Of a DNA stretch of 64,000 bases, positions 36,885-55,021 are shown piece after piece. The notes below the pieces were generated by a model. The model made no database searches, was not told where the DNA came from, and was given only the letters and a program-made list of their open reading frames with translations. Made by a program: the position numbers and the translations under genes. The number at the start of each line of letters is the position of its first letter. Within the stretch, counting starts at the first letter, position 1. Origin of the DNA: Xanthomonas euroxanthea (GTDB lineage Bacteria > Pseudomonadota > Gammaproteobacteria > Xanthomonadales > Xanthomonadaceae); contig NZ_UIHB01000002.1 of the NCBI RefSeq assembly GCF_900476395.1, positions 837,126-901,125 of the forward strand. Reading direction: 5' to 3'.

Positions 36885-37484
36885 ATGATCCAGATATCCG
36901 ACAAAGCCCAAACCTATTTCCGCAAGCTCATCGAACGCGAGGGCGTGCCCGGCATGGGCGTGCGCCTGAGCGCAGTGGACGCCGGCACCCCGCGCGCCGA
37001 CGCCCGGCTCGAGTTCGCCGAACCGGCGGACCTGAGCGGTGACGAATGGGCGATCGACTGCGACGGCTTCACCTTGTATATCGTCGCCGCCAGCGTGCCC
37101 TGGGTGGATGGCGCCGAAATCGACTACGTCACCCAGTCCACCGGCAACCAGCAGCTCACCATCAAGGCGCCCAAGATCAAGGGCGAAGCGCCGGCCGACT
37201 CCGCATCGATGGTGGAGCGCGTGCGCTGGGTGGTGGAGAACGAGATCAACCCGCAGCTGGCATCGCATGGTGGCCGTGTGGCGGTGCAGGAGGTCTCGGC
37301 AGAGGGTGTCGTGCTGCTGCGCTTCGGCGGCGGTTGCCACGGCTGCGGCATGGCCGATGTGACCTTGAAGCAGGGCATCGAGAAGACCTTGATGGGGCGC
37401 GTGCCCGGCGTGATTGCGGTGCGCGACGCGACCGACCACGCCACCGGCGACGCGCCGTATATTCCGCGCGACAGCGCGGCCTGA
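36885..37484 (+). CDS. nfuA: Fe-S cluster carrier NfuA
   Basis: 199 aa: N-terminal A-type-like domain ([15 protein letters not shown]) lacking the usual three cysteines, and a C-terminal Nfu domain with [12 protein letters not shown], whose CxxC holds a [4Fe-4S] cluster shared across a dimer. Delivers clusters to apo-enzymes under stress. Confidence 0.95.
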
Positions 37485-37497
37485 TTCCGCGCCACCG

Positions 37498-39306
37498 GTG
37501 ACCACGGCCGCCGATCTGCTGCAGGCATTGCGCGCGCGCATGCCGGGCAAGCTCATCCTGGATCGGCGCACCGGCCTGCCTTACGGTTGGGCAACCTGGA
37601 TGAGCAGTCGCATCGGACCGGCGACTGCGTTCGACGATGACCAGGTGATGGGCGTGCTGCTGGCACGGCCAGCGTCGCCTGCAGGTGCTGGCATGGCGTT
37701 GCTGTTGTCGCCGTTCCAGGCATTTCGCAGCCTGTGGTGGCAGCACTGGGAGCCGCGGCCGAAGGACCAACGGCCGCAACACTGGCTGGCGCTGCTCGCT
37801 AGCCTGTTGATCCATCTCGGTTTCATCGCACTGCTGATCTGGGTCGTCACGGTGCGCTGGGCGCCGGATGACACCAAGACCGGCGACGAATCGCGGGTGC
37901 GCATGACCTTCATTGGCGACGGAGCGGCGGAGCAGGGCGGTGGACAAGGGCAGCCCGCTGACGCGGCGCAGGCCGCCTCGGGCGATGCGGCTTCAGCGCC
38001 GCAATCCGCTGCGTCCGTTGCAACCGGCAGGCCGAGCAAAGCGAGTGCAGCACCGTCGGAGCCTGCGCCCGCCGAGCCACCAGTCGATCCTTCAAGTACT
38101 GCCCAGGCGCAGGACATCGCGCCGGAACCGGTGGCTGCCGCTGCCAGCGAACCGGTGGCGCCTGAGGTGCCACGTGTGAGCGTGCAGGTGCCGCCGGTGA
38201 CGATTGAATCGCCACTGCAGGTCACCGAAACACCGGTGGCCACGAACGACTTCGTCGTGCCGCCGCCGCCCACGATCACGGTGACTCCGCGTCCGGTTGC
38301 GCCGGCCGCGCCGCAGATCGAGGTGCGCCAGCGCGATATCCAGACCGTCACCGAACAGCCGCAACTGCGCGAATTGCAGGGTCCTGCAGCCACGGTTGCG
38401 GTGCGCGCTGCCAACGCGCCAACGGTGCGCGAGCGGGAAGTCGTCGTGCCGGACCGGCCACAGGTCGTTGCGCCGTCCGTGCGCAGTCGCGAGATCACGC
38501 CGACGGTTCGCATGCCCGATGTCGCCATTCGAACGGCCGAACTGCCAAGCGTGCCGGACCCGGCGCCCCAGCCGGCACCGGCGGCACCAGCCCGACAGAT
38601 GCCGGTGACCCCGTCGCCGGCAGCATCTGCGTCGGCGACTGCAGCGACGCAGCCATCGGCAGCTTCCACGCAGCCCAGCCAGGCGCAGGCGAATCCGGCG
38701 CGAGGCGCGCAATCCAGCAACACCGCAGCGGCGGCCGCATCCGCAACCAGGCCGGCGTCCAGCAATGCCGGTCCAGCCCCGGCAGACCGTAGCGGCGGCT
38801 GGGATACCGCGGCCAATGCGGACGACTGGAGCAAATCCGACCGTCGTCGCAGCGGCGAAGCAACAGGTGCCAACGGAACGCGCAATGGCATGTTCAACGC
38901 AGACGGCAGCGTCCACGTCGCCGCCGGAACCGGCGATGCCGGCACCGGTGCTGGCGACCGCGGGCCGCCAGGCAGCGAAACCGATACCTGGACTCGCGAC
39001 CAGATCGCCCAGGGCGGCACCTGGCTCAAACGTCCGCCATACGGCTACACGCCGACCTCGCTGGACAAGTACTGGATGCCAAACCAGTCGCTGCTGCAGG
39101 AATGGGTGCGCCGCGGCCTGAAGAAGATCGAGATCCCGATCCCGGGAACGACCACCAAGATCAGCTGCGTGGTGTCGTTGCTGCAATTCGGCGGCGGCTG
39201 CGGCCTGAGCGACCCGAATCTCAACGATCAACCGGCAACGGCCAGACCGCCGCCGGATGTGCCGTTCAAGCGGGAGCTGCAGGAAGACAATGGGGCTGTT
39301 AGGTAG
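37498..39306 (+). CDS. TonB-like repetitive transmembrane protein
   Basis: 602 aa from a GTG giving VTTAADLLQALRARMPG, 13 bp after nfuA; an ATG frame inside nfuA is less likely. About 95 cytoplasmic residues, one helix (HWLALLASLLIHLGFIALLI), then over 350 residues rich in Pro, Ala, Val and Gln (repeats like VPDRPQVVAPSVRSREITP), and a compact conserved end (LDKYWMPNQSLLQEW, FGGGCGLSDPNLNDQP). Topology resembles TonB or a long periplasmic tether. Known in Xanthomonas only as a transmembrane repetitive protein. It ends 16 bp before the dif site. Confidence 0.72.
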   Translation: MTTAADLLQALRARMPGKLILDRRTGLPYGWATWMSSRIGPATAFDDDQVMGVLLARPASPAGAGMALLLSPFQAFRSLWWQHWEPRPKDQRPQHWLALLASLLIHLGFIALLIWVVTVRWAPDDTKTGDESRVRMTFIGDGAAEQGGGQGQPADAAQAASGDAASAPQSAASVATGRPSKASAAPSEPAPAEPPVDPSSTAQAQDIAPEPVAAAASEPVAPEVPRVSVQVPPVTIESPLQVTETPVATNDFVVPPPPTITVTPRPVAPAAPQIEVRQRDIQTVTEQPQLRELQGPAATVAVRAANAPTVREREVVVPDRPQVVAPSVRSREITPTVRMPDVAIRTAELPSVPDPAPQPAPAAPARQMPVTPSPAASASATAATQPSAASTQPSQAQANPARGAQSSNTAAAAASATRPASSNAGPAPADRSGGWDTAANADDWSKSDRRRSGEATGANGTRNGMFNADGSVHVAAGTGDAGTGAGDRGPPGSETDTWTRDQIAQGGTWLKRPPYGYTPTSLDKYWMPNQSLLQEWVRRGLKKIEIPIPGTTTKISCVVSLLQFGGGCGLSDPNLNDQPATARPPPDVPFKRELQEDNGAVR

Positions 39307-39322
39307 TCAGCTACCGGGCTGG

Positions 39323-39350
39323 TTCTGACATAATATACATTATGCGAAAT
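39323..39350. other. dif: dif site (XerCD recombination site)
   Basis: 28 bp: arms TTCTGACATAA and TTATGCGAAAT around the hexamer TATACA. Read on the minus strand, the centre TGTATA and the inner arm bases CGCATAA and TTATGT equal those of E. coli dif; differences lie in the outer arms. XerC and XerD resolve chromosome dimers here, and Xanthomonas filamentous phages integrate at dif (established). The intact core at the edge of a decayed mobile region fits both roles. No second copy was found in the window. Confidence 0.85.
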
Positions 39351-39397
39351 CGGTTCTTGGGGCGGCGCGGGCTCGGCGGCGCTGGATCTGGTGTCAG

Positions 39398-39530
39398 TTG
39401 ATTGCCGCGGAGGAAATGCCCCCGTTCCCGCAGACATACACCCCATTCGCCGCGGAAACGCGCCCCACATTTCGCGGAACCCCGGACAAGTCGCCCCAGC
39501 TTTGATGGAACGACGGAAAAACCGCCCCGG
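39398..39530. repeat. Multi-copy GC-rich repeats, array A
   Basis: Repeated units of about 20-30 nt of the form GCCCC(A/C)N-TTTCGCGGAA: for example CCCCATTCGCCGCGGAAACGC, GCCCCACATTTCGCGGAACC, then a unit ending GACGGAAAAACC. Related array B is at 40384. Multiple internal copies of a terminal repeat are typical of IS21-family ends, but no IstA/IstB gene is present, so this is inferred to be a relic. Not CRISPR: units differ and spacing is tight. Confidence 0.5.
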
Positions 39531-39541
39531 TGTTGAGTTGT

Positions 39542-39618
39542 ATGTGGACAGCGCACTCTTGGATGCTCCTACGCAGCACTCCCAATGCGTTTCCCACGCA
39601 CTCAATGGTGATCTTCAT
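39542..39618 (-). repeat. 77-bp duplicated segment, copy 1
   Basis: Matches 39925-40001 at 63 of 77 positions in the same orientation. On the minus strand each copy starts with ATG and encodes a similar peptide (here MKITIECVGNALGVL), with many conservative changes such as I/L, N/K and Q/R. The frame from this copy runs 74 codons into array A. Whether it is translated is unknown; it starts 10 bp after the 76-aa gene. Confidence 0.7.
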
Positions 39619-39628
39619 TAGCGAGCTT

Positions 39629-39859
39629 CTATCGCTTCGCGGCGGCGTTGATCGCAGCGTGTGTGCGCTCTATAGAAAGCACAGGTTCGTCCTCTAGCCC
39701 TTTCACCAAGCCGGCGGCAGCATCCGCTGCCGCGATTGCTGTGCCCTCGCCTCCATCAACAAGATGGAGGGAAAACGTAGCCGTCCATACTTGAGGCACA
39801 GCCTGAGACAACAGCCATGATCGGTATTTCGGATCTCGGTAGACTGCGAGGCCATTCAT
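39629..39859 (-). CDS. Small hypothetical protein (76 aa)
   Basis: Starts MNGLAVYRDPKYRSWLLSQ after a clear GAGAGAG Shine-Dalgarno, the best start signal in this decayed region. Soluble, with a mixed helix-forming end (THAAINAAAKR). No family recognised. It lies between the two copies of the 77-bp duplication, so it may be cargo of the same element. Confidence 0.5.
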   Translation of the reverse strand: MNGLAVYRDPKYRSWLLSQAVPQVWTATFSLHLVDGGEGTAIAAADAAAGLVKGLEDEPVLSIERTHAAINAAAKR

Positions 39860-39924
39860 GCAGCTTCTCTCTCCACACGGTACTGCTTGCGATGGTTAGC
39901 TGAGGTGCGAATTCACTCGTGCCA

Positions 39925-40001
39925 TAGTGGCCAGCGCATTCTCGGATGCTCTTATGCAGCACTCTCAGTGCTTTTCCCACGCACTCAAGAGTGATCGCCA
40001 T
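39925..40001 (-). repeat. 77-bp duplicated segment, copy 2
   Basis: Second copy of the segment at 39542-39618 (82 percent identity), encoding MAITLECVGKALRVL from an ATG at 40001. A shorter degenerate third copy is visible at about 40042-40062 (GCATTCACGGGTGCTCTT against GCATTCTCGGATGCTCTT). Confidence 0.7.
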
Positions 40002-40080
40002 CTGCAGCCGCACTAGTGAGTGACAAGTTTTCCTAGCCCTGCATTCACGGGTGCTCTTTTTTAGAAGGTACCAGGCTTGT

Positions 40081-40385
40081 CTAACGCGCTGCGCTGCGTG
40101 GCTTGCGCGTAACTGGTAGGGCCGACTTCTGGCGTGAAGTGGGTCGCTTTGAAGCAGTCGCACGTTGTAACTCTGTTGCCAGCGTGTCGGCTCGAGCTCG
40201 CTCGATGGCAGCTTCTCGGAGCGCCTCGGCCAGCGCCTGACGGTTACTGTCTTCTTGCTGGCGAGCGTGTTGTTCAAACTTCTGATGCTCCCGTTGTGCG
40301 CTTGAGAGCTGCTTTTGAAGTCCCTGAGCTTCCTGTCGTGCGCGATCGATCTCTGCGTGCGCCCTATCCTCAATGGCGCTTGTCT
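40081..40385 (-). pseudogene. 3' remnant of a coiled-coil DNA-binding protein (KfrA/TnpT-like)
   Basis: About 100 codons: AEIDRARQEAQGLQKQLSS onward is a continuous charged coiled coil, ending with a basic tail (RKPRSAAR). KfrA-type plasmid proteins and TnpT cointegrate-resolution proteins have such tails after an N-terminal HTH. Here the N-terminal part is missing: upstream the frame enters repeat array B, so the gene was probably truncated by insertion. Family call is tentative. Confidence 0.45.
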
Positions 40386-40508
40386 GCCGGGGATAAGTTG
40401 CCCCTTTGACAGCTGAAACTGCCCCATTTTGCTGCGGAAACCCGCCCATCTTTTCGCGAGTCTTCGGACAACCCGCCCCTAATTTGGCGGAACTACGCAT
40501 TACTTGCC
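40384..40508. repeat. Multi-copy GC-rich repeats, array B
   Basis: Units such as GCCCCATTTTGCTGCGGAAA, a second ending TCTTCGGACAACC, and GCCCCTAATTTGGCGGAACT recur at 20-30 nt spacing, as in array A and in the same orientation. It abuts the truncated coiled-coil gene, marking the insertion edge. Probable relic end of an IS21-like element; no transposase nearby. Confidence 0.5.
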
Positions 40509-40730
40509 CCGAATTCTCTTGGAGCTCGTTTGGTCACAGGACCTCCAAGTAGCTGCCTTCTTGCTGTGCACCGTCATTCAAATGCAGCCACATCGCCCTC
40601 AGAGTTCAGCCATACAGCCCTCAGCCTACGTTAGATCTGGGGCCTTTCCGGATGAATTTCCTGCAAGTTCTTTCGATTTGGGGGCAAATTGTAGTGCGAC
40701 ATCGTCTTGGTCTTCCTAGTGGGCAATGCA

Positions 40731-40904
40731 ATGAATTCCCTGTCTACCTTGCAACAGATGAGCATCGTCGCAGGCGTCTTAGTAGCGCTTGTCGTTTCCA
40801 TTACCTTGGCGGCAGTCTGGCTGGCCAGTCGCCAAAACGCAGCATACGATCGAGAGCTGGCAGGAGGGAAATGCCCTTGTTGCGGCAAATCGCTGGATGC
40901 CTAA
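40731..40904 (+). CDS. Small membrane protein with a CPCC zinc-ribbon-like tail
   Basis: 57 aa from the ATG giving MNSLSTLQQMSIVAG; a TTG eight codons earlier is also open. One helix (VAGVLVALVVSITLAAVWLA), then a short cytoplasmic or periplasmic tail ending GGKCPCCGKSLDA. The CPCCGKSL motif resembles half of a zinc ribbon. No family recognised. Composition is protein-like, so I regard it as probably real. Confidence 0.5.
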   Translation: MNSLSTLQQMSIVAGVLVALVVSITLAAVWLASRQNAAYDRELAGGKCPCCGKSLDA

Positions 40905-40991
40905 CGTTCAAGCGACGTTTCCCCCACAGGTTGCCTTAGTAACGCGTATGGCATCCTTGCGGAAGCAGCTCTTCTACCAGGCAGGCAGTCT

Positions 40992-41306
40992 ATGCGCGGG
41001 CATATACCTTCGGAAACATCCGCCTCCGCTCAAGCCAGAGCAGGCGCCGCGCGGGATTGGCTCGATGCGGCGGCGTTCCAAGCGATACTGAGCCCAAATG
41101 CCGTCCAGGGCCGCACCCTGACGCAGTGCCTGCAGTCTGGGAGCGTTCGGGGCGTGTGGATCCCAGAACGGAAGGTTCATCTCTTTCCGCCGTGGCAGCT
41201 CGATCCTACTGGGACACCTTGGACCAGCCTCTCCGCAGTGTTGGCGCTACTGCGTGGGCCATATGGCATTTCAAGGGGCAAATCTACCCGTGATGCGTCG
41301 CGTTAA
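40992..41306 (+). pseudogene. Winged-helix/antitoxin-like fragment
   Basis: 104 codons. RDWLDAAAFQAILSPNAVQGR followed by GVWIPERKVHLFPPWQLD resembles the N-terminal segment of small proteins with a DUF2384/MbcA-like antitoxin architecture, where a short HTH is followed by a PPWQ(F/L)D motif. The expected C-terminal half is missing and the frame ends shortly after LLRGPYGISRG. Either a short gene or a remnant; no toxin partner is visible. Confidence 0.4.
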
Positions 41307-41655
41307 TGCCCGAAAATCTCTTGAAATCTGACCGCGCAACCAGGGCCCTGACCCTCAGAAATCAACGCCTGTGCCGCAACACCAACGCAAGCTCGCTTGG
41401 CGATGGTCTCAAGGTCCGTACACTTTCCGGCATTGCTGGACCGGCGGCACCACAGCAAGCAGCTCGCTGACGATCGATGGTGATGGCAAGAAATCGGCCC
41501 GCCGTGGCCCGCCCCGCCCTGCGCTCAACCAGCGCCTGGCAACATCGCGATCCTGCGCAAAGTGTCGAACCCCTGCGAGGCCGCGCGGTTAACGTGGGTG
41601 GCGCAACGTCGGCACCGGGAGAATGGCAAGCTCCTGCAAGAGCACCCACCGCCCC
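41307..41655. other. Non-coding stretch in the mobile region
   Basis: 349 bp between the antitoxin-like fragment and the HEPN-like gene. Frames on both strands overlap one another and show no start signal or family motif. No repeat found. Confidence 0.4.
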
Positions 41656-42303
41656 TCAGTTGATGAGGTCAGCGTTCTCGTACAAGGGTTCAAGGTCGGC
41701 CAGGGTGATCTTGGCCTGACAAAGAAGAATAAGCGCGAAGTACAGATAGCAGAATAGGAACGTCCAAGACGCAGCGGTGACCGAGTCGCCGGAGGCGGAG
41801 AGGCTGTTCAATCGCGAAGCGGCATTTCCGTGTGCCGCATTGTTGCGACTCGCATAGAGAAGCGGGCGCACCAGGAAGGACAGCCAGTGCTGCTGACTGT
41901 TGAAGCTCCCTGTCACGGTGCCGCTCGTCACGCTGGCCCCTAAAGCCTCCTGCCGGAGCAGAAGGCTGGCTTGGTGAACAAGCCCCCTTGCCTTATTGCC
42001 ATCTTGCGGCTTGATTCCAAAGTCCAGTTCCGTCCTGCAGGACGACTCTGTAATGGCGCACAACTTGGCATATTTCACGCCCATTGAGCTCTTGAGCTTG
42101 GCGTGGACGCGCTCGAAGTCTTTTTTGAAGGACCAATATGCTGCAGGAACGAGGATCAGCCTGACAGCCGTGCTGGGTGGCGCACTGGCGTTGTGCTCCT
42201 CAACCGCGATGCCGCGGAGGATGTACTGCGCCACAAAGTTGAAGTTCCTCGCCGGCGCATTTTTCAGGTAGCGACGTCCCCCCGCCCTGAGTAGCGGCCT
42301 GGT

Positions 42304-43155
42304 TTAGAGTCCGGGGTTGATGATATCGGTGTTTGCAAGATGTTGGGCATACGCAGCCGGCGTCATGCCGCCGATTGCTTTCTTGGGTCGGTCCTCGTTG
42401 TATTCGCGTCGCCAGCGTTCGATTTCAGTGCGCGCGTGCAGTAACGTCGGGAACCAGTGCTCGTTGAGGCATTCGTCGCGCAGTCGGCCGTTGAAGGATT
42501 CGACGTAGGCGTTCTGGTTCGGTTTGCCTGGCTGGATGAGCCGTAGTTGCACATCACGGGCATGCGCCCAGGCGATCATCGCCTTACCGCAAAACTCCTT
42601 GCCGTTGTCAGTGCGGATCACCTTCGGCAAACCGCGACTGTGCGCCAGTCGGTCCAGCACGCGCGCAACGCCGTGGCCCGAGATCGCGCGCTCCACCTCG
42701 ATGGCGACCGCTTCGTGGGTTGCATCGTCCACGATCACCAGACACTTGATCACCCGGCCTTCGGCGGTGCGGTCGAACACGAAGTCCATCGACCACACCT
42801 GGTTGGCCTGCGATGGCCGCAGCAGCGGTTGACGCTCGCCTATTGGGACCTTCTTGCGCTTGCGGCGGCGCACCTGCAGCTGCTGCTCGCGGTACAACCG
42901 CTCCACACGCTGGTAGTTCACGATGCGTCCTTCCTGTCGCAGTTTGAGATAGATCATCCCCACGCCATAGCGGCGATGGCGATGTGCCAACGCACAGATG
43001 CGTTCGCGCAGTTCGCCATTGCGATCTTCGCGCGGGCAATACCGCAGTGCACTGGCGCTCATACCGATCACTGCCAACGCACGACGCTCGCTGGCACCAC
43101 GCCCGATCCATTCGCGCACCAGCGTCCGACGCGCCGGTGCGCTTACCACTTTTTT
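42304..43155 (-). CDS. IS3-family transposase OrfB
   Basis: Integrase-core (rve) domain with the DDE triad: WSMDFVFDRT, RTDNGKEFCG and ESFNGRLRDECLN. HRHRRYGVGMIYLKLRQEG is the HTH-like linker. Made as an OrfAB fusion by a -1 shift at the A6G run (complement of 43149-43155). Complete to the TAA-side terminus. Confidence 0.9.
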   Translation of the reverse strand, partial: KKVVSAPARRTLVREWIGRGASERRALAVIGMSASALRYCPREDRNGELRERICALAHRHRRYGVGMIYLKLRQEGRIVNYQRVERLYREQQLQVRRRKRKKVPIGERQPLLRPSQANQVWSMDFVFDRTAEGRVIKCLVIVDDATHEAVAIEVERAISGHGVARVLDRLAHSRGLPKVIRTDNGKEFCGKAMIAWAHARDVQLRLIQPGKPNQNAYVESFNGRLRDECLNEHWFPTLLHARTEIERWRREYNEDRPKKAIGGMTPAAYAQHLANTDIINPGL

Positions 43156-43412
43156 CGCAGCGCATCCTTGATCAGGTCGTTCTCGAACAGCTGCTCGGCC
43201 AGCAACTTCTTCAGTCGCGCGTTCTCGGACTCGAGGTCCTTGAGCCGCTTGGCATCGGGCACGCTCATCCCACCGAACTTGCTGCGCCACAGGTAGTACG
43301 AGGCCTCGCTGAAGCCATGCCGCCGGCACAGGTCCTTGATGGCGACGCCGCTTTCGGCTTCGCGCAGGAAGCCGATGATCTGTTCTTCGGAAAAACGCTT
43401 CTTCACGTCCAA
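43143..43412 (-). CDS. IS3-family transposase OrfA
   Basis: 89 aa: HTH (FSEEQIIGFLREAESGVAI, LCRRHGFSEASYYLW) and a leucine-zipper-like end (LKDLESENARLKKLLAEQ). The end of the frame, CGA AAA AAG TGG, carries the slippery A6G for -1 frameshifting into orfB. Confidence 0.92.
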   Translation of the reverse strand: MDVKKRFSEEQIIGFLREAESGVAIKDLCRRHGFSEASYYLWRSKFGGMSVPDAKRLKDLESENARLKKLLAEQLFENDLIKDALRKKW

Positions 43413-43573
43413 TCTCCTCGGGGTAGGGAATTGGACTCCAAACTGAGGCGCTACTCAAAATTGGGGGGACGTCGGTGCATTCCACATCAGCCCAATAGCG
43501 TCGCGCTTATGAATGCACCGAAGTCCCGGACCTTCATTTCCCAATGACAAGGGAGCGCGCTTACCGGGTTTAA

Positions 43574-44752
43574 GGATGCTCTGAAGAAATACCTCGGTAG
43601 TGCCGGCCGCTGGCCGGCAACCTGAGAGACAATGTCAGCACCTGTTGAGGAGCCATCCATGCAGCTGACATTCGGGGACGCCGAGGGGCTGGGCAAGCGC
43701 AAACAGACCCGCCGGGAGATCTTCCTTGGCGAGATGGAGCAGGTCGTTCCGTGGAAGTCTCTACTGGCGCTGATCGAGCCGCATTACCCGACCTCCGGCC
43801 GACGCGGCCGTCCGCCGTACGCACTGGCAACCATGCTGCGCATCCATCTGCTGCAGCAGTGGTATGCGTTGAGTGATCCGGGCATGGAAGAGGCGCTGCA
43901 CGAGATTGCCTCAATGCGTCTGTTCGCACGGCTCAGCGGGTTGGACACCATCCCCGACGAGACGACCATCCTCAACTTCCGTCGGTTGATGGAGACGCAC
44001 GGTTTGGCCCCCAAAATGCTTGAAGCGGTCAACGCGCACCTGGCACGCAAGGGCCAGAGCCTGCGCGCCGGCACGATTGTCGACGCGACGATCATCTCGG
44101 CGCCAAGTTCGACCAAGAACGCTGCCAAAGCACGTGACTCTGAGATGCATCAGACCAGGAAGGGCAACCAGTGGTATTTCGGTATGAAGGCGCACATCGG
44201 CGTTGATGAGTTTTCCGGACTGGTGCACCACGTGAAGTGCACCGCTGCCAACGTGGGCGACGTTACGGTCACGCATGCGCTTTTGCACGGCAAGGAAGAC
44301 TGCGTGCTGGGTGACAGCGGCTACACCGGAGCCGACGCGCGCGCAGAACTGCGGGGCTGCAACGCCACCTTCTTTATCGCCAAGAAGCGCGGCAAGGTGA
44401 AGGCCATCAAGAACGCCCGCGACCGCCGACAACACGAGCGCTGGGAGAGCTGCAAAGCGAGCATGCGCGCGAAGGTGGAGCATCCGTTCCGGGTGATCAA
44501 GCGCCAGTTCGGTTACACCAAGGTGCGCTATCGCGGGCTGGCGAAGAACACTGCGCAGGTGCTGACGCTGTTCGCGCTGTCCAATTTGTGGATGACGCGT
44601 CGGCAGCTGACGCCGGTCCAGGGGTAAATCCGCCTGGAGGTGCCCGCTGGCGCTTCCAAGCAGCAGAACATTATCAATCTAGGGTGTCAGTCGGTCGCAG
44701 ATCGAGCCTGACCCGAAAAATCAGGGCTCAAAGCTGGTTGTTCAGAGCATCC
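43574..44752 (+). mobile_element. IS5-family element, 1179 bp
   Basis: Terminal inverted repeats GGATGCTCTGAA (43574-43585) and TTCAGAGCATCC (44741-44752), flanked by TTAA on both sides (43570-43573, 44753-44756), a duplicated target. Contains one transposase gene. Intact. It lies 3 bp from the stop codon of the first aldo/keto reductase, marking the edge between decayed mobile DNA and the redox island. Confidence 0.9.
43659..44627 (+). CDS. IS5-family transposase
   Basis: 322 aa from the ATG after GAGGAG, giving MQLTFGDAEGLGKRK. DDE domain: GTIVDATIISAPSS (D), LGDSGYTGADAR (D), and AKVEHPFRVIKRQFG (E, the YREK-like box). N-terminal DUF772 domain RGRPPYALATMLRIHLLQQW. Full length. Confidence 0.93.
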   Translation: MQLTFGDAEGLGKRKQTRREIFLGEMEQVVPWKSLLALIEPHYPTSGRRGRPPYALATMLRIHLLQQWYALSDPGMEEALHEIASMRLFARLSGLDTIPDETTILNFRRLMETHGLAPKMLEAVNAHLARKGQSLRAGTIVDATIISAPSSTKNAAKARDSEMHQTRKGNQWYFGMKAHIGVDEFSGLVHHVKCTAANVGDVTVTHALLHGKEDCVLGDSGYTGADARAELRGCNATFFIAKKRGKVKAIKNARDRRQHERWESCKASMRAKVEHPFRVIKRQFGYTKVRYRGLAKNTAQVLTLFALSNLWMTRRQLTPVQG

Positions 44753-44759
44753 TTAAGGC

Positions 44760-45817
<1,058 letters not shown>

Positions 45818-45865
45818 AGACTTGCAGTGATATCGTTACTTCATCAATAGAGGCGACGGCACCGC

Positions 45866-46792
45866 ATGAAAAGAGATGAATTCTCCGACCTCGCCGCCTT
45901 CGTGGCCGTTGCGGAGGATGCGAGTTTCACCAGGGCCGCCGCCCGCCTGGATACCTCCCAGTCGGCGCTCAGCTACACAGTCCAGCGGTTGGAGACCCGG
46001 CTGGGTGTGCGCCTGCTCAATCGCACCACGCGCCGGGTGGCCCCGACGGCGGCAGGAGAGACCTTGTTGTCGGCGCTGCGCCCTGCGCTGTCCAGCATCA
46101 GCGGCACCTTGGCCCAGATCAGCCAGCTCCAGGAAACACCCTCCGGCACGGTGCGCCTGAGTTGCAGCTCGCACGCGGCACGGACCGTGCTGTGGCCTGC
46201 AGTGGCCGCAATCGTCCCGCACCATCCGGGGCTGACCATCGAGATCGCCGTCGATGCTGCCTTGACCGATATCGTCGCCGAGCGCTTCGATGCAGGAGTT
46301 CGGCTGGGCGAGCAGGTGGACGCGGATATGGTGGCTGTACGCATCGGCCCGGAACTCAGGATGGCGGTCGTGGCCTCCCCCGCGTATCTCAGCGCCAATG
46401 GCAGCCCCGCGACCCCGCATGACCTCACCGGTCATGCGTGCATCAACATCCGCATGCCGTCCTCAGGCGGCCTGTATGCATGGGAGTTCGAGAAGGAGGG
46501 GCGCGCGCTCAATGTGCGGGTGAGCGGCCCGTTGGTGTTCAACGACATGGACATGGTCATCGCCGCGGCGGTGCAGTCCTTCGGCATCGCCTTCGTGCTC
46601 GAAGACCAGGTGCACCACCTCATCCAGCAGGGCGTCCTGGCCCGCGTGCTGTACGAGTGGTGCCCTGCCTTCCCCGGTTACCACCTGTATTACCCCAGCC
46701 GACGGCAGCCATCGGCGGCGTTCACCCTGCTGGTCGCCGCGTTACGCGCGCGCGCCGACGCCCCGGCGCTTCATGCCGGCTCCACCTTGTAG
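45866..46792 (+). CDS. LysR-family regulator 1
   Basis: 308 aa. N-terminal wHTH (ASFTRAAARLDTSQSALSYT, LGVRLLNRTTR) and a periplasmic-binding-like effector domain with ERFDAGVRLGEQVDADM and the clade end signature FPGYHLYYPSRRQ. Belongs with regulators 2-4 to one paralogous group (CrgA/DsdC-like LTTRs). Convergent with the RibD-like gene, overlapping it by 22 bp. Expected to control the divergent aldo/keto reductase 1. Confidence 0.93.
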   Translation: MKRDEFSDLAAFVAVAEDASFTRAAARLDTSQSALSYTVQRLETRLGVRLLNRTTRRVAPTAAGETLLSALRPALSSISGTLAQISQLQETPSGTVRLSCSSHAARTVLWPAVAAIVPHHPGLTIEIAVDAALTDIVAERFDAGVRLGEQVDADMVAVRIGPELRMAVVASPAYLSANGSPATPHDLTGHACINIRMPSSGGLYAWEFEKEGRALNVRVSGPLVFNDMDMVIAAAVQSFGIAFVLEDQVHHLIQQGVLARVLYEWCPAFPGYHLYYPSRRQPSAAFTLLVAALRARADAPALHAGSTL

Positions 46793-47463
46793 CGCAGGTG
46801 CACCACGCCGGCGTCGCAAGGGGTAGCAGACAGGAAGCGCAGCCGGAGCGTGTCGGCCAACCCGGTGGAGGTTTCAAAGAGCGTGTTGCGGCCGGTCTTG
46901 CCGTCAATGGCCGGGGCCAGCACGATGCTGACCTCGTCCACGACGCCGGCGGCCATGAAGGCGCCGTTGACCACGCCTCCGCCTTCGAGCAATACCTTGC
47001 GTGCCCCGAACGCGCTGCCGAGTATCTCGAGCACCGCTGCAGGATCCACCGGATCGTGGGGCATGACGATGTAGGACAGCCCGCGTGCGACCAGTTCACC
47101 CAGGTGGGCGTCCGTCACCGTCGGGCCGAGCACCATCACGAGATGGTCGCCATCCAGGTCGCCCGATTCCCAGTGCAGCCTGCCTTTCGGATCGATCACC
47201 ACGGCCAGCCGATCACTGGCGCCCGCGGCGCGGTAGGTGGGTCGAACCGCTGTGTGCCCGGCATCCGGTGCGGCGCTGCCGGTCGCGAACGGCGCCATGG
47301 TCACCCGACCGACGATATACGCCTGCGCGTCGAACGCTTTCTCGATCCCATAGTAGAGCTGGATCCAGACATCCTCGGCCCCCTCCGCCGGTCGCGTCCA
47401 ATGTCTGGGATCGACGCGCCCGTCCAACGGCGCAAGCATGTTACAGATGACATACGGCTTCAT
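46771..47463 (-). CDS. RibD C-terminal / dihydrofolate reductase-like reductase
   Basis: 230 aa. MKPYVICNMLAPLDGRVD opens a RibD C-terminal-type fold; LLEGGGVVNGAFMAAG is the NADPH-binding segment. Such stand-alone proteins are small-molecule reductases of unknown substrate. It follows the alcohol dehydrogenase by 36 bp on the same strand, so the two probably form one transcript controlled by LysR 2. Confidence 0.85.
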   Translation of the reverse strand: MKPYVICNMLAPLDGRVDPRHWTRPAEGAEDVWIQLYYGIEKAFDAQAYIVGRVTMAPFATGSAAPDAGHTAVRPTYRAAGASDRLAVVIDPKGRLHWESGDLDGDHLVMVLGPTVTDAHLGELVARGLSYIVMPHDPVDPAAVLEILGSAFGARKVLLEGGGVVNGAFMAAGVVDEVSIVLAPAIDGKTGRNTLFETSTGLADTLRLRFLSATPCDAGVVHLRYKVEPA

Positions 47464-47499
47464 GGCGGTTCCTTTCAGTTAGCGGGGCGTGGCGGGCGG

Positions 47500-48516
47500 T
47501 CAAGGCCTAAGCAGCACCTTGATGGCCCGGCGCTCATCCATCGCTCGGTAGCCCTCGGCAACGTCGCTCATGGGAAGCTCGAGATCGAACACCTTGCCGG
47601 GATTGATCGTGCGGCTGAGCACCAGGTCCAGCAGATGAGGCAGGAAGCGCCTGACCGGCGCCGGTCCACCCAGCATGCCCGTCTGTGAGAAGAACAAGGC
47701 CTGTCCGTCCAGCTCGACGCCGTGCGGCACGCCGACATAGCCGATCATGCCGCCTGGCCGGGTGATCCGGATGGCCTGCTGCATGGACTCGTCGGTGCCC
47801 ACGCACTCCAGCACCGAATCCGCGCCGATGCCATTGGTCAGTTCTTTGATGCGGGCGACACCGGCATCACCGCGCTCGGTGACGATGTCCGTTGCGCCGT
47901 ACTCGATGGCCAAGGCCTGCCGGGGAGCATGGCGGCTCATCGCGATGATGCGCCCTGCCCCCATCTGGCTCGCCGCCAGCACGCCCATCAAGCCGACCGC
48001 GCCATCGCCAACCACCACCACGGTTCCACCGGGCTTCACCCGCGCGGCATCTGCCGCATACCAGCCGGTGCCCAGCACATCGGAGGCAGCAAGCAGACTG
48101 GGAATGAGGTCGTCATCGGGCTGCGTGTCCAAACCCACCAACGTCCCGTCGGCCAGCGGCACCCTCGCGAACGGGGCCTGCGCGCCTGTCATGAACTCAC
48201 GCTGCTCGCAGGAGGACTGGAAGCCATAGTTGCAGTGCGGACAGGTGTTGTCCGAAAGGCAGAACGAGCCCACCACGAACTGCCCGGGCGTGACGGTGGT
48301 CACGGCGGTGCCCACTGCCACGACGGTGCCGCAGTACTCATGGCCCATGGCCATCGGCGCATCCACCGGGCTCAAGCCGCGATACGGCCACAGGTCCGAG
48401 CCGCAGATGCATGACGCCGCCAGCCGAATGATCACGTCGGTGGGGTGAATGATTGTCGGTTCCGGAACCGCTTCGAAACGAACGTCGCCGGGGCCGTGAA
48501 GGATCGCGCCGAGCAT
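47500..48516 (-). CDS. Zinc-dependent alcohol dehydrogenase
   Basis: 338 aa medium-chain dehydrogenase. GHEYCG supplies the catalytic-zinc ligand region, CPHCNYGFQSSCE the structural-zinc cysteines (one ligand altered in spacing), and VVGDGAVGLMGVLAA the NAD(P) fold. Divergent from LysR 2 with a 217-bp gap; followed by the RibD-like reductase. Substrate unknown. Confidence 0.9.
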   Translation of the reverse strand: MLGAILHGPGDVRFEAVPEPTIIHPTDVIIRLAASCICGSDLWPYRGLSPVDAPMAMGHEYCGTVVAVGTAVTTVTPGQFVVGSFCLSDNTCPHCNYGFQSSCEQREFMTGAQAPFARVPLADGTLVGLDTQPDDDLIPSLLAASDVLGTGWYAADAARVKPGGTVVVVGDGAVGLMGVLAASQMGAGRIIAMSRHAPRQALAIEYGATDIVTERGDAGVARIKELTNGIGADSVLECVGTDESMQQAIRITRPGGMIGYVGVPHGVELDGQALFFSQTGMLGGPAPVRRFLPHLLDLVLSRTINPGKVFDLELPMSDVAEGYRAMDERRAIKVLLRP

Positions 48517-48529
48517 GGGTCAGGCCTTC

Positions 48530-48541
48530 TATCGAGGGATA
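48530..48541. promoter_or_regulatory. Short palindrome in the ADH/LysR 2 gap
   Basis: TATC-GAGG-GATA, 4-bp arms, 14 bp before the ADH start. Weak on its own, but reminiscent of the GATA/TATC palindromes in the gaps of LysR 1 and LysR 4. Confidence 0.3.
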
Positions 48542-48733
48542 CTGAAATCCTAGCGCGGCTGGCGCACTTGACCATGCCCCAACAGCGCATGCTTCAATGA
48601 GCCTGAGTCAACAATGCATGCTGCGGACTGCTTCGCGACGATGTATTGCAGTACGCTGTGCCTGCGCATAGAGGCGTAGGCAAAGACCGCCCATTTGCCC
48701 GGCATCCGATTCTGAAGGCGTTGGAAATCCGCA

Positions 48734-49627
48734 ATGGCCCGTGAGAACTACAACGAACTGATCGCCTTCCTGGCGGTTGCCCACGAGAAGAGCTTCACGC
48801 GGGCCGCTGCGCAGCTGGGAGTATCGCCATCGGCACTTAGCCATATGGTTCGAGCCTTCGAAACGCGGCTTGGCGTACGCCTGCTCACCCGGACCACTCG
48901 CAGCGTTTCGGCAACGGAGGCTGGCGAGCGGCTCCTGCGGACTGCGGGGTCCCAGATCAAGGAAATCGAGAACGATGTGGTGATGCTTCGCGAGTCCCGC
49001 GATACGCCTGCCGGTTCGCTGCGCATCACCACCGGCGAGCATGCCGCCGATACCGTGCTGTGGCCAAAACTGGCCGCACTGCTGCCGATCTATCCGGATA
49101 TCCGGCTGGAGGTCTGTATCGACTATGGATTGACCGATATCGCAGCCGAGCGGTTCGATGCCGGGATCCGGTTGGGGGAACAGGTCGCCAAGGGCATGGA
49201 ATCGGTACGCATTTCGGCGGATATCAGCATGGCAGCGGTTGCCACGCCAGCGTATTTCAGTCGATATGGCGTGCCCGTAACCCCGCAGGACTTGGTGGGG
49301 CACAACTGCATCAACCTGCGGCTGCCCACCTCCACCGGGCTGTACGCCTGGGAATTCGAAAAGGACGGCGAAGCGTTGAACGTCCAGGTGGACGGACAAC
49401 TTGTGCTCAATACCATTACCCAGGTGCTGCATGCTGCGCTGGCAGGGTTCGGATTGGGGTTCGTCCCCGACGAAATCGCACGGCCGCATATCGAGGCAGG
49501 CCGACTGGGACGTGTGCTCACCTCGTGGACGCCGCAGTTTCCGGGTTATCACCTGTACTACCCGACCCGGCGGCATTCCTCGCGCGCATTGGCACTGCTG
49601 GCAGACACGCTCCGGTACACCGACTGA
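48734..49627 (+). CDS. LysR-family regulator 2
   Basis: 297 aa with the clade features: HTH KSFTRAAAQLGVSPSALSHM, effector-domain ERFDAGIRLGEQVAKGM, end signature FPGYHLYYPTRRHSS. Divergent from the alcohol dehydrogenase/RibD-like pair and followed by an SDR gene on its own strand, either of which may be its target. Confidence 0.93.
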   Translation: MARENYNELIAFLAVAHEKSFTRAAAQLGVSPSALSHMVRAFETRLGVRLLTRTTRSVSATEAGERLLRTAGSQIKEIENDVVMLRESRDTPAGSLRITTGEHAADTVLWPKLAALLPIYPDIRLEVCIDYGLTDIAAERFDAGIRLGEQVAKGMESVRISADISMAAVATPAYFSRYGVPVTPQDLVGHNCINLRLPTSTGLYAWEFEKDGEALNVQVDGQLVLNTITQVLHAALAGFGLGFVPDEIARPHIEAGRLGRVLTSWTPQFPGYHLYYPTRRHSSRALALLADTLRYTD

Positions 49628-49733
49628 CGGCGCACTGATGCGCTGGATTCATGACGGAATCCACGGTGGACGGGTTACTGCCCTGCGCTTGGCTGCCTAC
49701 AGTGGTCCAATCATTCCATAGGTGGAGAGTGTC

Positions 49734-50573
49734 ATGGGCAAAGCCCCAGAAGATGTAGTGGTTGTCATCGGTCCGGGTTCTATCGGGCAGGCCATTGCGC
49801 GGCGCGTCGGCGTCGGCAAGCACGTGCTGTTGGCCGACCTGCATGAGGTGAACGCCACGACCGCAGCCAAGCTTCTGCACGATGCTGGCTATGTCACCAG
49901 CACCGTAGTGGTCGACGTCGCCTCGCGCGCATCTGTGGAAGCCCTGGTGGCCCGCGCGGTGTCGTTGGGCAGGGTCACCGGTGTGGTGCACGCCGCGGGG
50001 GTTTCGCCCTCGCAGGCACCCCCGCACACCATCCTGGCCGTGGACCTGTACGGAACGGCGCTGGTGCTGGAGACGTTTGGCAACGTCATCGCGCAAGGCG
50101 GATCGGCCGTGGTGATTGCCTCCCAGTCCGGACACCGCTTGGGCGCATTATCCGTCGAACAGAATCGGGCGCTTGCGATGACGCCCGCAGATGAGCTGCT
50201 GGCCCTGCCCTTCCTGCAGCCCGACCAGATTACCGACCCGCTGAACGCGTATCAGCTTGCCAAGCGTGGCAATGCACTGCGTGTCATGGCCGAGGCAGTA
50301 CGCTGGGGCAAGCGCGGGGCGCGGGTGAACACCTTGAGTCCCGGAATCATCATCACGCCGCTGGCCAATGACGAGCTAACCGGTCCGCGCGGTGACGGCT
50401 ATCGACGAATGATCGACCTGAGCCCAGCCGGTCGCGCCGGCACGCCGGATGAAGTGGCCGGCGTCGCGGCACTGCTGATGGGCGCCGAAGGGGCGTTCTT
50501 GACGGGCAGCGATATCCTGATGGACGGCGGAGTCACCGCCTCGTGGTTCTACGGCGAGCTGGCCCCCCGGTAA
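49734..50573 (+). CDS. Short-chain dehydrogenase/reductase
   Basis: 279 aa from the ATG giving MGKAPEDVVVVIG; a GTG four codons earlier is open. The cofactor loop is GPGSIGQAIA, a variant of TGxxxGxG; catalytic Ser in ASQSGH and Tyr/Lys in NAYQLAKRG; C-terminal FLTGSDILMDGG is typical of classical SDRs. Found 106 bp after LysR 2 and convergent with the RND adaptor. Confidence 0.88.
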   Translation: MGKAPEDVVVVIGPGSIGQAIARRVGVGKHVLLADLHEVNATTAAKLLHDAGYVTSTVVVDVASRASVEALVARAVSLGRVTGVVHAAGVSPSQAPPHTILAVDLYGTALVLETFGNVIAQGGSAVVIASQSGHRLGALSVEQNRALAMTPADELLALPFLQPDQITDPLNAYQLAKRGNALRVMAEAVRWGKRGARVNTLSPGIIITPLANDELTGPRGDGYRRMIDLSPAGRAGTPDEVAGVAALLMGAEGAFLTGSDILMDGGVTASWFYGELAPR

Positions 50574-50579
50574 TCCGGG

Positions 50580-51740
50580 TCAGCTCTTCTTCTCCGGTGC
50601 CGCGAGCCGCACCCTGTCACCGTCGCGGATGCCATCGGGTGGGCTGTTGATGACCCGTGCGTTGGCCCCCAGGCTTCCACCCAGCTCGACCAGCGCACCA
50701 TGGTCGCGAACGATGGTGACGTTGCTGAGCGTTACCCGGCCGGCGTCATCCACCAGCGCCACGCGCACGCCATTGCGGCCCATGATCAACGCACTGGGAG
50801 GCAGTGCATTGGCCGCCGCAGCCTGCGCGCCGGCAGATAATTGGACAGTGCCGAAGCTGCCGGGCAGCAGTCGCCCATCGTGATTGTCCACCTCCAGCTG
50901 GACGCGCATCGCCCCGGTCTGCGCATCGATGGCGCCTGCCAGTGACTGGACCGTTGCGGGGAAGGTCTCGCCCGGCCACTCCGGCACCTGCACCGCGGCG
51001 GTATCGCCGATCCTGAGGGATGCAACGCGTCGCTGCGGGATGTTCACGTAGACGCGCAGCCTGCGCACGTCAGCCACGACAAACAAGGGCGCTTCGCTGT
51101 TCGATCCGATGCCGATCAACGCACCTACATCGGTATTGCGTGCCGTCACCACGCCATCGAACGGGGCGGTGATCCGGGTGTATCGCTGCAGGGCCTCCAG
51201 CCGCTGCACATTGGCCTGCAGCGCGGATGCCTCGGCCTGGCGCGCGGCGGCGTCCGCATTGCGCTGGTCGGCATCCTGCCGGGACACCGTCTGGCTGGCG
51301 GCCAGGGTTCGCCAGCGCTCGGCCGTCGCGCCGGCAAAGGCGGCATCGCTGCGGGCACGCACCAGTTCGGCACGTGCTTGCTGCAGTGCCTGGTCCACAT
51401 CGGGTGCGTCCACCACGGCCAGCAGTTCGCCGGCCTTCACGGGTTGGCCAATGTCGCGGTACCAACGCTTCAGGTACCCGTCGACCCGGGCATGGATGGG
51501 GGCTTGCGACCACGCCTCGATGCGGGCCGGCGCGGACAGCGCCGTGGTGTCCGTCGTGGCCGGAGAGATCACCGCCACCGTGCGCAGCTGCTGCGCCGCG
51601 GCATCGTCCTGCAGGCGCTCGGCGCGCGACCAGCGGCTGGCGGCGCCCACCGCCAGCACCACGATGGCCATGGCGATCAGCACAACCGCGATTTTGGGCC
51701 GTCGGGTGGCGGGCGCTTCGTTTGAGTGGGGGAAGTTCAT
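50580..51740 (-). CDS. RND efflux periplasmic adaptor (HlyD/MFP family)
   Basis: 386 aa. One N-terminal helix (IAVVLIAMAIVVLAVG), biotinyl-lipoyl half (ARVDGYLKRWYRDIGQPVKAGE), alpha-helical hairpin rich in Ala/Arg (residues 110-170), and beta-barrel (APFDGVVTARNTDVGALI). Couples the RND pump to an outer-membrane channel. Starts 1 bp after the pump stop codon, so adaptor follows pump, the reverse of most MexAB-type operons. Confidence 0.92.
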   Translation of the reverse strand: MNFPHSNEAPATRRPKIAVVLIAMAIVVLAVGAASRWSRAERLQDDAAAQQLRTVAVISPATTDTTALSAPARIEAWSQAPIHARVDGYLKRWYRDIGQPVKAGELLAVVDAPDVDQALQQARAELVRARSDAAFAGATAERWRTLAASQTVSRQDADQRNADAAARQAEASALQANVQRLEALQRYTRITAPFDGVVTARNTDVGALIGIGSNSEAPLFVVADVRRLRVYVNIPQRRVASLRIGDTAAVQVPEWPGETFPATVQSLAGAIDAQTGAMRVQLEVDNHDGRLLPGSFGTVQLSAGAQAAAANALPPSALIMGRNGVRVALVDDAGRVTLSNVTIVRDHGALVELGGSLGANARVINSPPDGIRDGDRVRLAAPEKKS

Positions 51741-51741
51741 G

Positions 51742-54700
51742 TCAGGACGCTCCGGAAGCGGGGAAATCAGAGGGCGGAACGGACCGGAATGCACGGCCAT
51801 GGACCATGCTGAAGAGCACCGGCACAAAGACCAGCGTAGCGACCGTGGCGAACAGCAGTCCGCCGATCACCGCCCGTCCCAAGGGGGCGTTCTGCTCGCC
51901 GCCCTCACCTACGCCCAAGGCCATCGGCAGCATGCCGATCATCATGGCCAGCGCCGTCATCAACACCGGGCGGAAGCGCACGCGCCCCGCCTCCAGCGCC
52001 GCAGCGGTTGCATCCCCCAGCTCTGCCAGCTTCTCCCGCGCGAAGCTCACGACCAACACGCTGTTGGCGGTCGCCACGCCCATGCACATGATCGCGCCGG
52101 TCAGCGCCGGTACGGAGAGCGTGGTAGCGGTAGCAAACAACATCCACGCGATACCGGCCAGGGCGGCGGCAAGGCCAGCGACGATCACGGCGGGGTCGAG
52201 CCAGGACTGGAAGTTGACGACGATCAACAGATAAATCAACACGATCGCGCCGATCAGGCCGATGAACAGCCCGGTGAACGCACGGTTCATCGTCTCGACC
52301 TGGCCCATCAGGCTCACGCTCGCGCCCTGCGGCACATCGCCTTGGGTCGCAGCGATCGCCTTGCGGATATCGCCAGCTACCGCGGCCAGATCCCGGTCCT
52401 GTATCGCCGCATGGATCTGCACCATCGGCTGGATGTTGTACTGGCTCACCAGGGCACTGCCACTGGCGCGGGTCAGGGTGGCGACGCCGCCCAGCGTGGT
52501 ATCGCGGATGCCCTGCCCCGTCCCGACGGGCAGATTGTTGAGGGCCTCCACCGAATCGATGTTGCGCTGGGGCGTCTGCACCACGATCGGGTAGCTCACG
52601 CCGTTGGCCGGGTTCAACCAGAACGTCGGTGCGACCTGGCTGCTGCCCGCCAGGTTGGTGACCAGGCTGTTGGTCACATCACGGGTGCTCAAGCCCAGCA
52701 ACTGCGCCTGTGTGCGATCCAGCGTGATGTCGAACTTGGGTGCCTGGTTGGACTGCTGGATGCGAGCGTCCACGATGCCTGGGATGCCGCGCACACGCTG
52801 CAGCAGATCCTGCGCATAGGCGAAGTTCGCATCGAGGTTGCGCCCGCGAATCTGGATGTCGATGGGCGCTGGCGCACCGAAGTTCAGGATCTGGCTGACG
52901 ATGTCGGCCGGCGGGAAGGAAAATGTTGCATCCGGGAAGGCTTCGGGCAATACCCTGCGCAGCTCGCGGACATACTCGGCGGTGGGACGATGCCCATCGG
53001 CGAGCGCAATCTGGAAGTCGCCATCCTGCGGGCCCATCACACCGGTGTTGTTGTACGTCAGGTTGATGTTGCTCGGCGGCAGGCCGATGTTGTCCACCAG
53101 TGTGTCGATCTCTTCGGCCGGAATCACCCGGCGGATCGCTGCCTCGATGGCGGCGAAGCGAACGGCACTCTCTTCCACGCGGGTGCCCACCGGCAGCCGC
53201 ACATGCATCAGTACCTGTCCGGAATCCACGGAAGGGAAGAAGTTCGCGCCCAGAAACGGGAACAGTGCCAGCGACAGCGCAATCACCGTGCCAAAGCCGA
53301 TGAGGAAACGGCGGCGGCCCTGCAACGCCCGCTGCAATGCCGCGAGGTACCCGGCGCGTGCGCGTTCGAACTGGACCTCGAAGCCTCGCTGGAAACGAAC
53401 CAGCGCATTGCGTGACTGCGGGACGGCCGCATCGCCGGTGGCAGCGTTCCCATGAGGCTTCAGCAGAGACTTCGCCATGGTCGGGACGAGCGTGCGGGAG
53501 AGAATGAACGAGCACACCATCGCGAAGATCACCGAGAGCGCCATCGGCACGAACAGGAAGCGTGAGACGCCGTCCAGGAAGAACATCGGGACGAATGCAA
53601 TGCAGATGCACAACAGCGAGACGAAGGCCGGCCCGACGATCTGGCGCGCGCCGTCGAGAATCGCGGTCTCCACGTCCTTGCCCTGCTCCAGGTGCCAGTT
53701 CACGTTCTCGATGGTGACCGTCGCATCGTCCACCAGGATGCCGATGGCGAGCGCCAGTCCCCCCAGAGTCATGAGGTTCATCGTCTGACCCAGCGCGGCC
53801 AGCCCCATGATCGAGCCCATGATGGAAAGCGGGATCGAGATGGCGATGATGACCGTTGAGCGCCAGCTGCCCAGGAACAGCAGAATCATCAAGCTGGTCA
53901 TGGCGGCGGCGATCACCCCTTCCAGCGCAACCCCCTTGACCGCTGCGCGCACGAAGACGGACTGGTCATTGATCGGCAGCACGGTGAGCGCAGCGGGCAG
54001 TGAGCCTCGCATGTCGTCCAGCTTGGCGCGGATGCCATCGACGATGGCCAAGGTGGAGGCCGAGCCGCTTTTCAGTACCGTCATCAATACCGACCGGCTG
54101 CCATCAACGTGCACGATATTGGTCTGCGGCGCGTTGCCGTCACGGACGTCCGCCACATCCCGCAGGTAGATGGTCGCGCCATCCACCACTTTGACCGGCA
54201 GGTCGGCAAGGTCGGCAATCTCCCCCGGCGCGCTGTTGAGCTGGAGGGTGTATTCGCGGTCGTCGATCTTCTGCGTGCCTATCGGGGTCAGCACATTCTG
54301 TGCCGCCAGCGCCGCCGACACGTCCTGTGCAGACAGCCCCCGTGCCTGCAGGGCATCGGGCTTCAGATCGATCTGCACCTGGCGTTGCACGCCGCCATAT
54401 GGCAGTGGCACCACCGCCCCTGGCACCGTGATCAGTGGAGTACGGATGCTATTCATACCGATATCGAACAGGCTTTGCTCGGTCATGCCCTGGCCGGACA
54501 GAGCCAACTGGACGATCGGGACCGTGGCGGCGTTGTAGTTGAGAATGACCGGCGGCTGCGTGCCGGCGGGCATCTGGCGCAGTGCCACCTGCGAGGCGGC
54601 GGTGATCTGTGCATTGGCCGTGGCAATGTCCACGTCTGGCTGGAAGAAGATCTTGACGATGCCGACGCCCGGATAGGTATTGGCTTCGATGTGCTCGATA

Positions 54701-54936: not shown

Positions 54937-55004
54937 CAAGAGGCTCCACGGGATGCATCGGTTGCCGGAACGGCTCAGGGACTCTATCGGGCACCGCGAC
55001 GCAT

Positions 55005-55021
55005 GATTAGCTGGCACAATC
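55005..55021. promoter_or_regulatory. Dyad in the RND/LysR 3 gap
   Basis: GATT and AATC arms separated by 9 bp, 29 bp before LysR 3, in a 113-bp divergent gap. Fits a LysR-type half-symmetric box; weak evidence alone. Confidence 0.3.

Follow-up and report, generated by a model that had tools for sequence, protein, structure and literature searches.

By sequence, positions 39323 to 39350 of the window (the whole stretch of DNA analysed, 64,000 nucleotides) are established as the chromosomal dif site, and we consider it probable that the DNA to the right combines the scar of a filamentous phage with a decayed defence-type KfrA/recombinase element of a kind that docks next to dif. The site, the scar, the relic, the anchoring, the orientation and the cargo can be read from the DNA itself, and we infer the following order of events. 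Chromosome dimers would be resolved at 39323-39350 by XerC/XerD, activated by FtsK. A filamentous phage similar to PSH1 and XacF1 may once have integrated at dif via XerCD, leaving 41 bp of its left end behind. An element with a KfrA-like gene and a Cre-like tyrosine recombinase gene, accompanied in relatives by anti-phage cargo, would have landed 48 bp past the XerC arm, and would then have decayed and been broken further by another element end, an IS3, and an IS5. Because such elements appear anchored next to dif in Xanthomonadaceae, the dimer-resolution site may act as a docking place for defence islands.

The dif site and the replication terminus

The features at and left of dif are as follows.
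37414-39306, plus strand: core gene of 630 aa, called "transmembrane repetitive protein" in databases
39323-39350, minus strand: dif, ATTTCGCATAATGTATATTATGTCAGAA
39323-39333: XerD arm of dif
39334-39339: spacer of dif
39340-39350: XerC arm of dif

dif is the site where FtsK-activated XerC/XerD resolve chromosome dimers, and the arm names used here are assigned on the assumption that they correspond to those of E. coli dif. Positions 39323-39350 have the 28-bp arm-6-arm layout of known dif sites, and the site is thus of an already known kind. Compared with what we take to be the E. coli dif sequence, changes are confined to the outer arm bases, and it is for this comparison that the statement of the first-pass annotation, that only outer arm bases are changed, holds. 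A search of the whole 4.9-Mb assembly (10 contigs) returned the 28-mer once with up to three mismatches allowed; the inner 19-mer was likewise unique at up to three mismatches, and 100 dinucleotide shuffles of the window gave no 28-mer match at this tolerance. The site was present in all 35 genomes of the genus, the own genome included, at up to two mismatches of the pattern, with one copy in 34 genomes and two in G017, where two dif-like sites lie on two contigs (L065 and L066). As listed in PMC2731167, the dif of X. campestris ATCC 33913 equals the window 28-mer in 27 of 28 bases. The exact position, the uniqueness, and this single mismatch bear out the earlier assignment of dif to the minus strand.

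The core gene reported to precede dif was also confirmed, its stop lying 16 bp from the site. This 630-aa gene occurs in 35 of the 35 genus genomes and lies on the XerD side wherever it is on the dif contig (in G021, across the record start). By subtraction of positions, its end is 16 to 26 bp from dif in 10 of the 35 genomes; in the remaining ones the distance is greater or the gene is on a different contig. Up to dif, the 10-kb stretch to its left is colinear with G001, G003, and G005 at about 92%, with short gaps between blocks. A match to phrog_15788 was rejected as a mark of phage origin for this gene, since all 35 genomes carry it.

The first-pass annotation had also placed the replication terminus region in the window, and this is supported by the polarity of KOPS-type motifs (GGGNAGGG), which reverses at dif. 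Over 352 kb of the same contig, 36 forward motifs and 1 reverse motif lie left of dif, and 4 forward and 38 reverse motifs lie right of it, indicating that these FtsK-orienting motifs converge at dif (convergence was the part examined). The switch at dif was matched by none of 10,000 label permutations, and the cumulative maximum falls 4.1 to 10.6 kb right of dif. Cumulative GC skew within the window peaks near 38-39 kb. Over the 352 kb, the expected flip in skew was found as a change of sign around dif (of the 25-kb blocks, 7 of 8 on the left have positive skew and 6 of 7 on the right have negative skew), but the peak is blunt, with a value of 2815 at dif and a maximum of 2875 at +42.8 kb. 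KOPS polarity is therefore the clearer terminus signal.

Phage scar and element relic beside dif

The features right of dif are as follows.
39351-64000, no strand: part of the accessory region inside the window, filling the rest of it
39351-39391, no strand: 41-bp putative phage scar, left end of an integrated filamentous phage, orphan regulator-gene tail
39399-39536, plus strand: element end of 138 bp (E1), with GCGGAA..CGCCCC repeats and a sharp boundary
39544-39618 and 39927-40001, no strand: pair of 75-bp direct repeats, 84% alike
40064-40379, minus strand: relic of a KfrA-like gene, C-terminal part, pointing toward dif
40384-40511, plus strand: second, diverged E1-like end (E 1.3e-9)
42304-43485, minus strand: IS3-family transposase ORF, inverted arms 42288-42312/43433-43457
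43632-44627, plus strand: IS5-family transposase, inverted arms 43570-43588/44738-44756

Positions 39351-39391 differ by three mismatches from the tail at the dif of G020, which is occupied by a 7.9-kb phage; this similarity stands 12 SD above shuffles, and in most comparisons the homology ends at 39391. The tail had no protein-level match, and 39200-42300 had no DNA similarity in the phage collection. We read the 41 bp as the probable scar of a lost phage. Elsewhere in the genus, loci extending up to 10 kb either way from dif contained 13 extra half-sites in 12 of 35 genomes, 6.5 to 8.6 kb away on the XerC side (right), each made up of a degenerate XerD arm, an intact spacer, and a near-intact XerC arm; a shuffled control gave none in 1.3 Mb. 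At least one protein between dif and the half-site matches a known filamentous-phage protein in all 12 genomes, and in G020, G024, and G028 the phage identity is backed by DNA or family matches. The free phages phiXv2, XacF1, phiLf, and PSH1 carry the spacer, the XerC arm, and the regulator tail together with a degenerate XerD arm. By protein match, with two tail queries taken from G031 and G033, the regulator tail or the next phage gene lies right of dif in 25 of the 35 genomes. PMC5666396 places the attP of XacF1 inside ORF12, a possible regulator gene that is split on integration, and PMC3025954 had noted a dif within a phage ORF for Xanthomonas. After such an integration, the tail of the split regulator gene stays behind right of dif. 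The earlier proposal that dif is a target for filamentous phage is thus supported by the 12 genomes and by the scar in the window.

In G016 (L046, -6823) and G018 (L047, -6948), a half-site lies on the XerD side and the phage genes have the reverse orientation. In these genomes the opposite arm is used by a second class of phage, so phages can use either arm.

The same annotation had counted the decayed DNA itself among XerCD-using elements, and on this point it was not upheld. No second XerC half-site at up to 2 mismatches of 17 was found from -199 to +153 kb, and the window has neither the body of a phage enclosed by dif and another half-site nor the two bounding dif-like sites of an IMEX. 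Weak XerC half-sites with 3 to 4 mismatches of 17 number four, at -170, -124, +30, and +87 kb. Nor does foreign element DNA start directly beyond dif, as had been stated; the position was off by 48 bp, the 41-bp scar coming first and E1 starting at 39399.

The E1 boundary is common to 10 genomes of the family, the own genome included, as full or nearly full copies, with shorter pieces elsewhere, and E1 also occurs on the conjugative plasmid of X. campestris CN13 (two records). Compared with the CN13 plasmid element, DNA identity is 87% for E1 and 99% for 39928-40062. The KfrA-like relic is 96.8% identical in DNA to plasmid NZ_CP081999 over 40064-40379, and its protein match covers 40084-40470 at 75%. 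Its DNA match stops just where the second E1-like end begins (40384), suggesting that this end cut the KfrA-like gene. The window lacks the recombinase gene, so membership in the dif-anchored KfrA/recombinase family, which is defined in the present analysis, rests on E1 past the XerC arm and on the KfrA-like relic pointing toward dif. We identify the decayed DNA as what is left of a recombinase/KfrA-like element, together with IS3 and IS5. The 192-aa ORF at 41656-42234 had no Pfam, NCBIfam, or PHROG match. An IS21 end was rejected as the identity of the 138-bp E1; a search of 55 sequences with the G024 IstB returned that protein itself and one 27% match in G016, with no match near the ends.

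In G024 (L053/L082) and G034 (L063), a phage lies between dif and the element, the unit starting just past the far half-site of the phage, so that phage and element are stacked at dif in these genomes.

The variable stretch, given earlier as 5.4 kb, is in fact about 100.7 kb long, extending from dif to a core-like SDR gene (G000:C9:977342), and DNA homology to G005 likewise resumes at +100.7 kb. The SDR gene is a conserved right neighbour, and by subtraction its distance to the right of dif is 0.28 kb in G002, 1.6 in G004, 6.9 in G005, 8.6 in G007, 30 in G006, 31 in G028, 37.5 in G034, 43 in G003, and 100.9 in the own genome; 13 of 35 genomes passed the strict threshold, and in 4 of these 13 the gene was off the dif contig. 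The aldo/keto reductase gene at 44760 was rejected as the ancestral right neighbour, as its copies lie at various places and, among the copies listed, are at most 63% identical outside the own genome. In G031 its relatives are 2-6 kb away from dif; the distance is about 18-22 kb in G006 and 43-45 kb in G023. Positions 44760-64000 contain accessory metabolic genes (aldo/keto reductase, LysR regulator, and AcrB-type transporter).

Anchoring and anti-phage cargo in relatives

The intact relatives indicate an element family anchored beside dif in Xanthomonadaceae, the family being judged from named matches. The recombinase was found in at least 104 of 395 family genomes and in at least 21 of 54 genera, both counts being lower bounds as up to five candidates per genome were scored, and the exact 17-bp dif core was found in 146 of the 395. 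The two lie on one contig for 44 copies in 38 genomes, a count that leaves out 4 copies off the dif contig and 63 of the 104 recombinase-bearing genomes, which have no exact dif core, and that takes separately the double copies of G023, G001, and G000 and the split copies of G174, G291, and G300. The recombinase is within 5 kb of dif in 30 of the 44 copies, within 10 kb in 34, and within 108 kb in all; in terms of genomes, a copy falls within 10 kb in 30 of 38. The nearest copies include several gene fragments. Transcription runs away from dif in all 44, of which 31 are on the XerC side and 13 on the XerD side. Of the 8 copies placed in the genus, 4 fall within 10 kb of dif and 7 within 50 kb, and the own genome has intact copies 30 and 80 kb from dif. 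Among the 117 dif loci listed (up to 8 kb long, 80 of them by name), which overlap partly with the genomes of the 44-copy count, at least 11 carry one or both genes at E <1e-20. Two genomes that have no exact dif core, G182 and G040, were inspected, and a variant dif lies near the recombinase in both. This variant, in another genus of the family, has the spacer GATACA (L283 of G182 and L284 of G040). Relatives occur on plasmids as well, in 72 records at E 1e-30, of which 62 show less than 60% identity.

These distances bear on whether the locus is simply dif with ordinary debris of the terminus, where insertions would cost little and no targeting would be needed. The IS3, the IS5, the phage scraps, and the 100-kb accessory stretch of lower GC would all suit such debris, as would the wide variation of insert sizes among relatives. 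However, island integrases (PF13356) on dif contigs of the genus were within 50 kb of dif in 0 of 28 cases and within 100 kb in 1 of 28, against 7 of 8 recombinases within 50 kb in the genus and, across the family, 34 of 44 at no more than 10 kb, every copy in a single orientation; the control covers the genus only (35 genomes, distances by subtraction) and the recombinase count the family sample of 395. We consider unstructured debris unlikely, and insertion near dif may have been targeted.

Anchoring is also seen in the position of E1, which in 8 of the 10 copies that are full or almost full follows the XerC arm at 48, 49, 67, 68, 74, 76, 85, and 212 bp; of random points in the same dif-containing loci, 106 of 2400 fell within 300 bp of the arm. 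No XerC arm lies within 700 bp of E1 in the full copies of G026 and G282 or in the two partial copies, that of G364 and the second of G030. The spacing between E1 and the arm is not constant and points to no exact target base; the distal end of the element was not found, and no target duplication was readable.

The XerC arm in front of 8 of 10 E1 ends might also mean that the whole unit (XerC arm, leader, E1, gene pair, and cargo) was integrated by host XerC/XerD, its own recombinase serving otherwise, and in G024 and G019 the unit indeed follows a second half-site and not dif itself. Such integration is argued against by the 20 loci followed to about 14 kb past dif, where clear half-sites lie on the side away from the unit; the unit side has only a 3-mismatch site (G182, +12.4 kb) and an intergenic repeat (G062), and the shuffled control gave 9 such sites. 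The leader between arm and E1 varies in sequence and length and often reads as phage tail, and the CN13 plasmid has no dif core in the stretch examined around E1. Host-mediated integration of the whole unit thus seems improbable to us, to about the same degree as terminus debris.

Other transposons are described that prefer the terminus and one orientation relative to replication. If a Tn3-like element with such a resolvase were directed by the replication fork in this way, the 44 of 44 recombinases pointing away from dif on both replichores would be explained, and the resolvase pair does resemble that of Tn4651. However, no Tn3-type transposase was found among the neighbouring ORFs of four loci, and 30 of 44 copies within 5 kb are a tighter cluster than a general terminus preference would give. 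We hold this fork-directed account to be the least likely of the three. Docking of a KfrA/recombinase element next to dif remains our preferred reading.

ORFs near the recombinase were compared with PADLOC models, and at up to 1e-10 matches were obtained in 15 of 17 loci and for 18 of 20 ORFs; four further loci also match defence models, for a total of 19 of 21. The 17 loci are the 20 fetched minus G268 and G349 (contig ends) and G174 (ORF lengths as in G221), and the downstream ORF tested was not always the first (G213, second; G182, second and third; G195, third; G207, fourth). The types include Gabija, E1-E2/JAB of CBASS type, Ppl, OloA, NsnB, and candidate systems, with Gabija A and B paired at full length in G228, G382, and G182. 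Of the four further loci, that of G001 carries candidate systems, in which Pfam identifies a C-terminal domain of NACHT type and an ApeA-like protein; the plasmid carries PD-Lambda-4, and G024 a Ppl-like gene. In the own genome, the fourth, a Pycsar cyclase and an E1-E2 gene lie beside the recombinase 80 kb from dif. Some of these matches have weak scores (G385, 4.5e-13) or reflect shared ATPase domains, and the ORFs beside the recombinase of G267 and G207 had no PADLOC match. As a control, 10 large ORFs on the core side of the window were compared, and 1 of them matched (mad3, E 8e-35).

dif is already known as an entry point for filamentous phages. If elements dock here as proposed, phage entry and phage defence (Gabija, CBASS-type, Pycsar, and others) would meet at one 28-bp target, and dif would be a simple address at which to look for new defence systems in Xanthomonadaceae. 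We see an even chance for the wider proposal that elements with TnpT/TnpS-like pairs actively insert at dif with anti-phage systems and compete there with filamentous phages, in Xanthomonadaceae and relatives. The question also arises of what role a Cre-like resolvase plays beside the chromosome's own resolution site.

The recombinase pair and comparison with known systems

G182 and G024 share 2.9 kb at 93%, from exactly E1 through the KfrA-like gene into the gene of a 361-aa tyrosine recombinase, and plasmid copies of the pair have KfrA_N and Phage_integrase domains. The closest solved proteins to the recombinase are Cre recombinases (E 3.7e-10). In single comparisons with pWW0, the recombinase is 26% identical to the integrase (E 1e-18), and the N terminus of the KfrA-like partner is 39% identical to its counterpart over 88 aa (E 4e-9). 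The divergent pWW0 pair, labelled "DNA-binding protein" and "site-specific integrase" in the record, is taken here, by its layout, to be TnpT/TnpS of Tn4651. Between the divergent genes, GATAAGTGATGATTATC is common to 19 of 20 aligned intergenic regions and forms the heart of a 13-7-13 inverted repeat, the outer arms of which pair imperfectly; a second inverted repeat follows. PMC7157771 describes the same divergent layout for TnpS and TnpT, with the resolution site between the genes. From the homology to TnpS/TnpT, the layout, and the shared repeat, the pair most likely resolves at its own inverted repeat, where the recombinase would act. The unit may have reached its place beside dif by targeted insertion, by XerCD capture, or by transposition directed to the terminus.

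In L265, L266, L268, L269, and L032, compared with L080, the recombinase is 86 to 98% identical to the plasmid copy and the partner only 40 to 46%, most of the KfrA-like partner gene having been exchanged. A mosaic breakpoint exactly at the inverted repeat was rejected; the unit homology runs about 150 bp into the KfrA-like gene.

No report of a dif-docked defence element was found in the open-access papers searched, and none of the titles and abstracts listed connects the recombinase pair or its defence cargo with dif. The closest known systems each share part of the picture. The dif site agrees with X. campestris dif in 27 of 28 bases, in motif polarity, and in single copy, with no difference of note; outer XerD-arm bases differ among genomes. 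With the integration of XacF1, Cf1c, phiLf, phiXv2, and PSH1, the window shares the XerC arm and the first 41 bp of such a phage end, but it has the scar alone and no phage body. For Vibrio, PMC11630473 describes dif sites with filamentous and tailless prophages, the tailless ones often with integrases. In S. maltophilia, of a related genus, Gabija, Pycsar, and CBASS occur in variable loci with integration genes nearby (PMC11680222), but a word search of that paper turned up neither "Xer" nor a dif site. The TnpS/TnpT/rst module of Tn4651-type Tn3 elements differs from the dif element, which is anchored at dif, has defence genes beside it, encodes a recombinase only 26% identical, and has no transposase among the neighbours scanned. 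In common, the 20 aligned intact relatives have a divergent recombinase and helper, both homologous to their Tn4651 counterparts, with an inverted-repeat site between them, and the window retains of this module the C-terminal relic of the helper.
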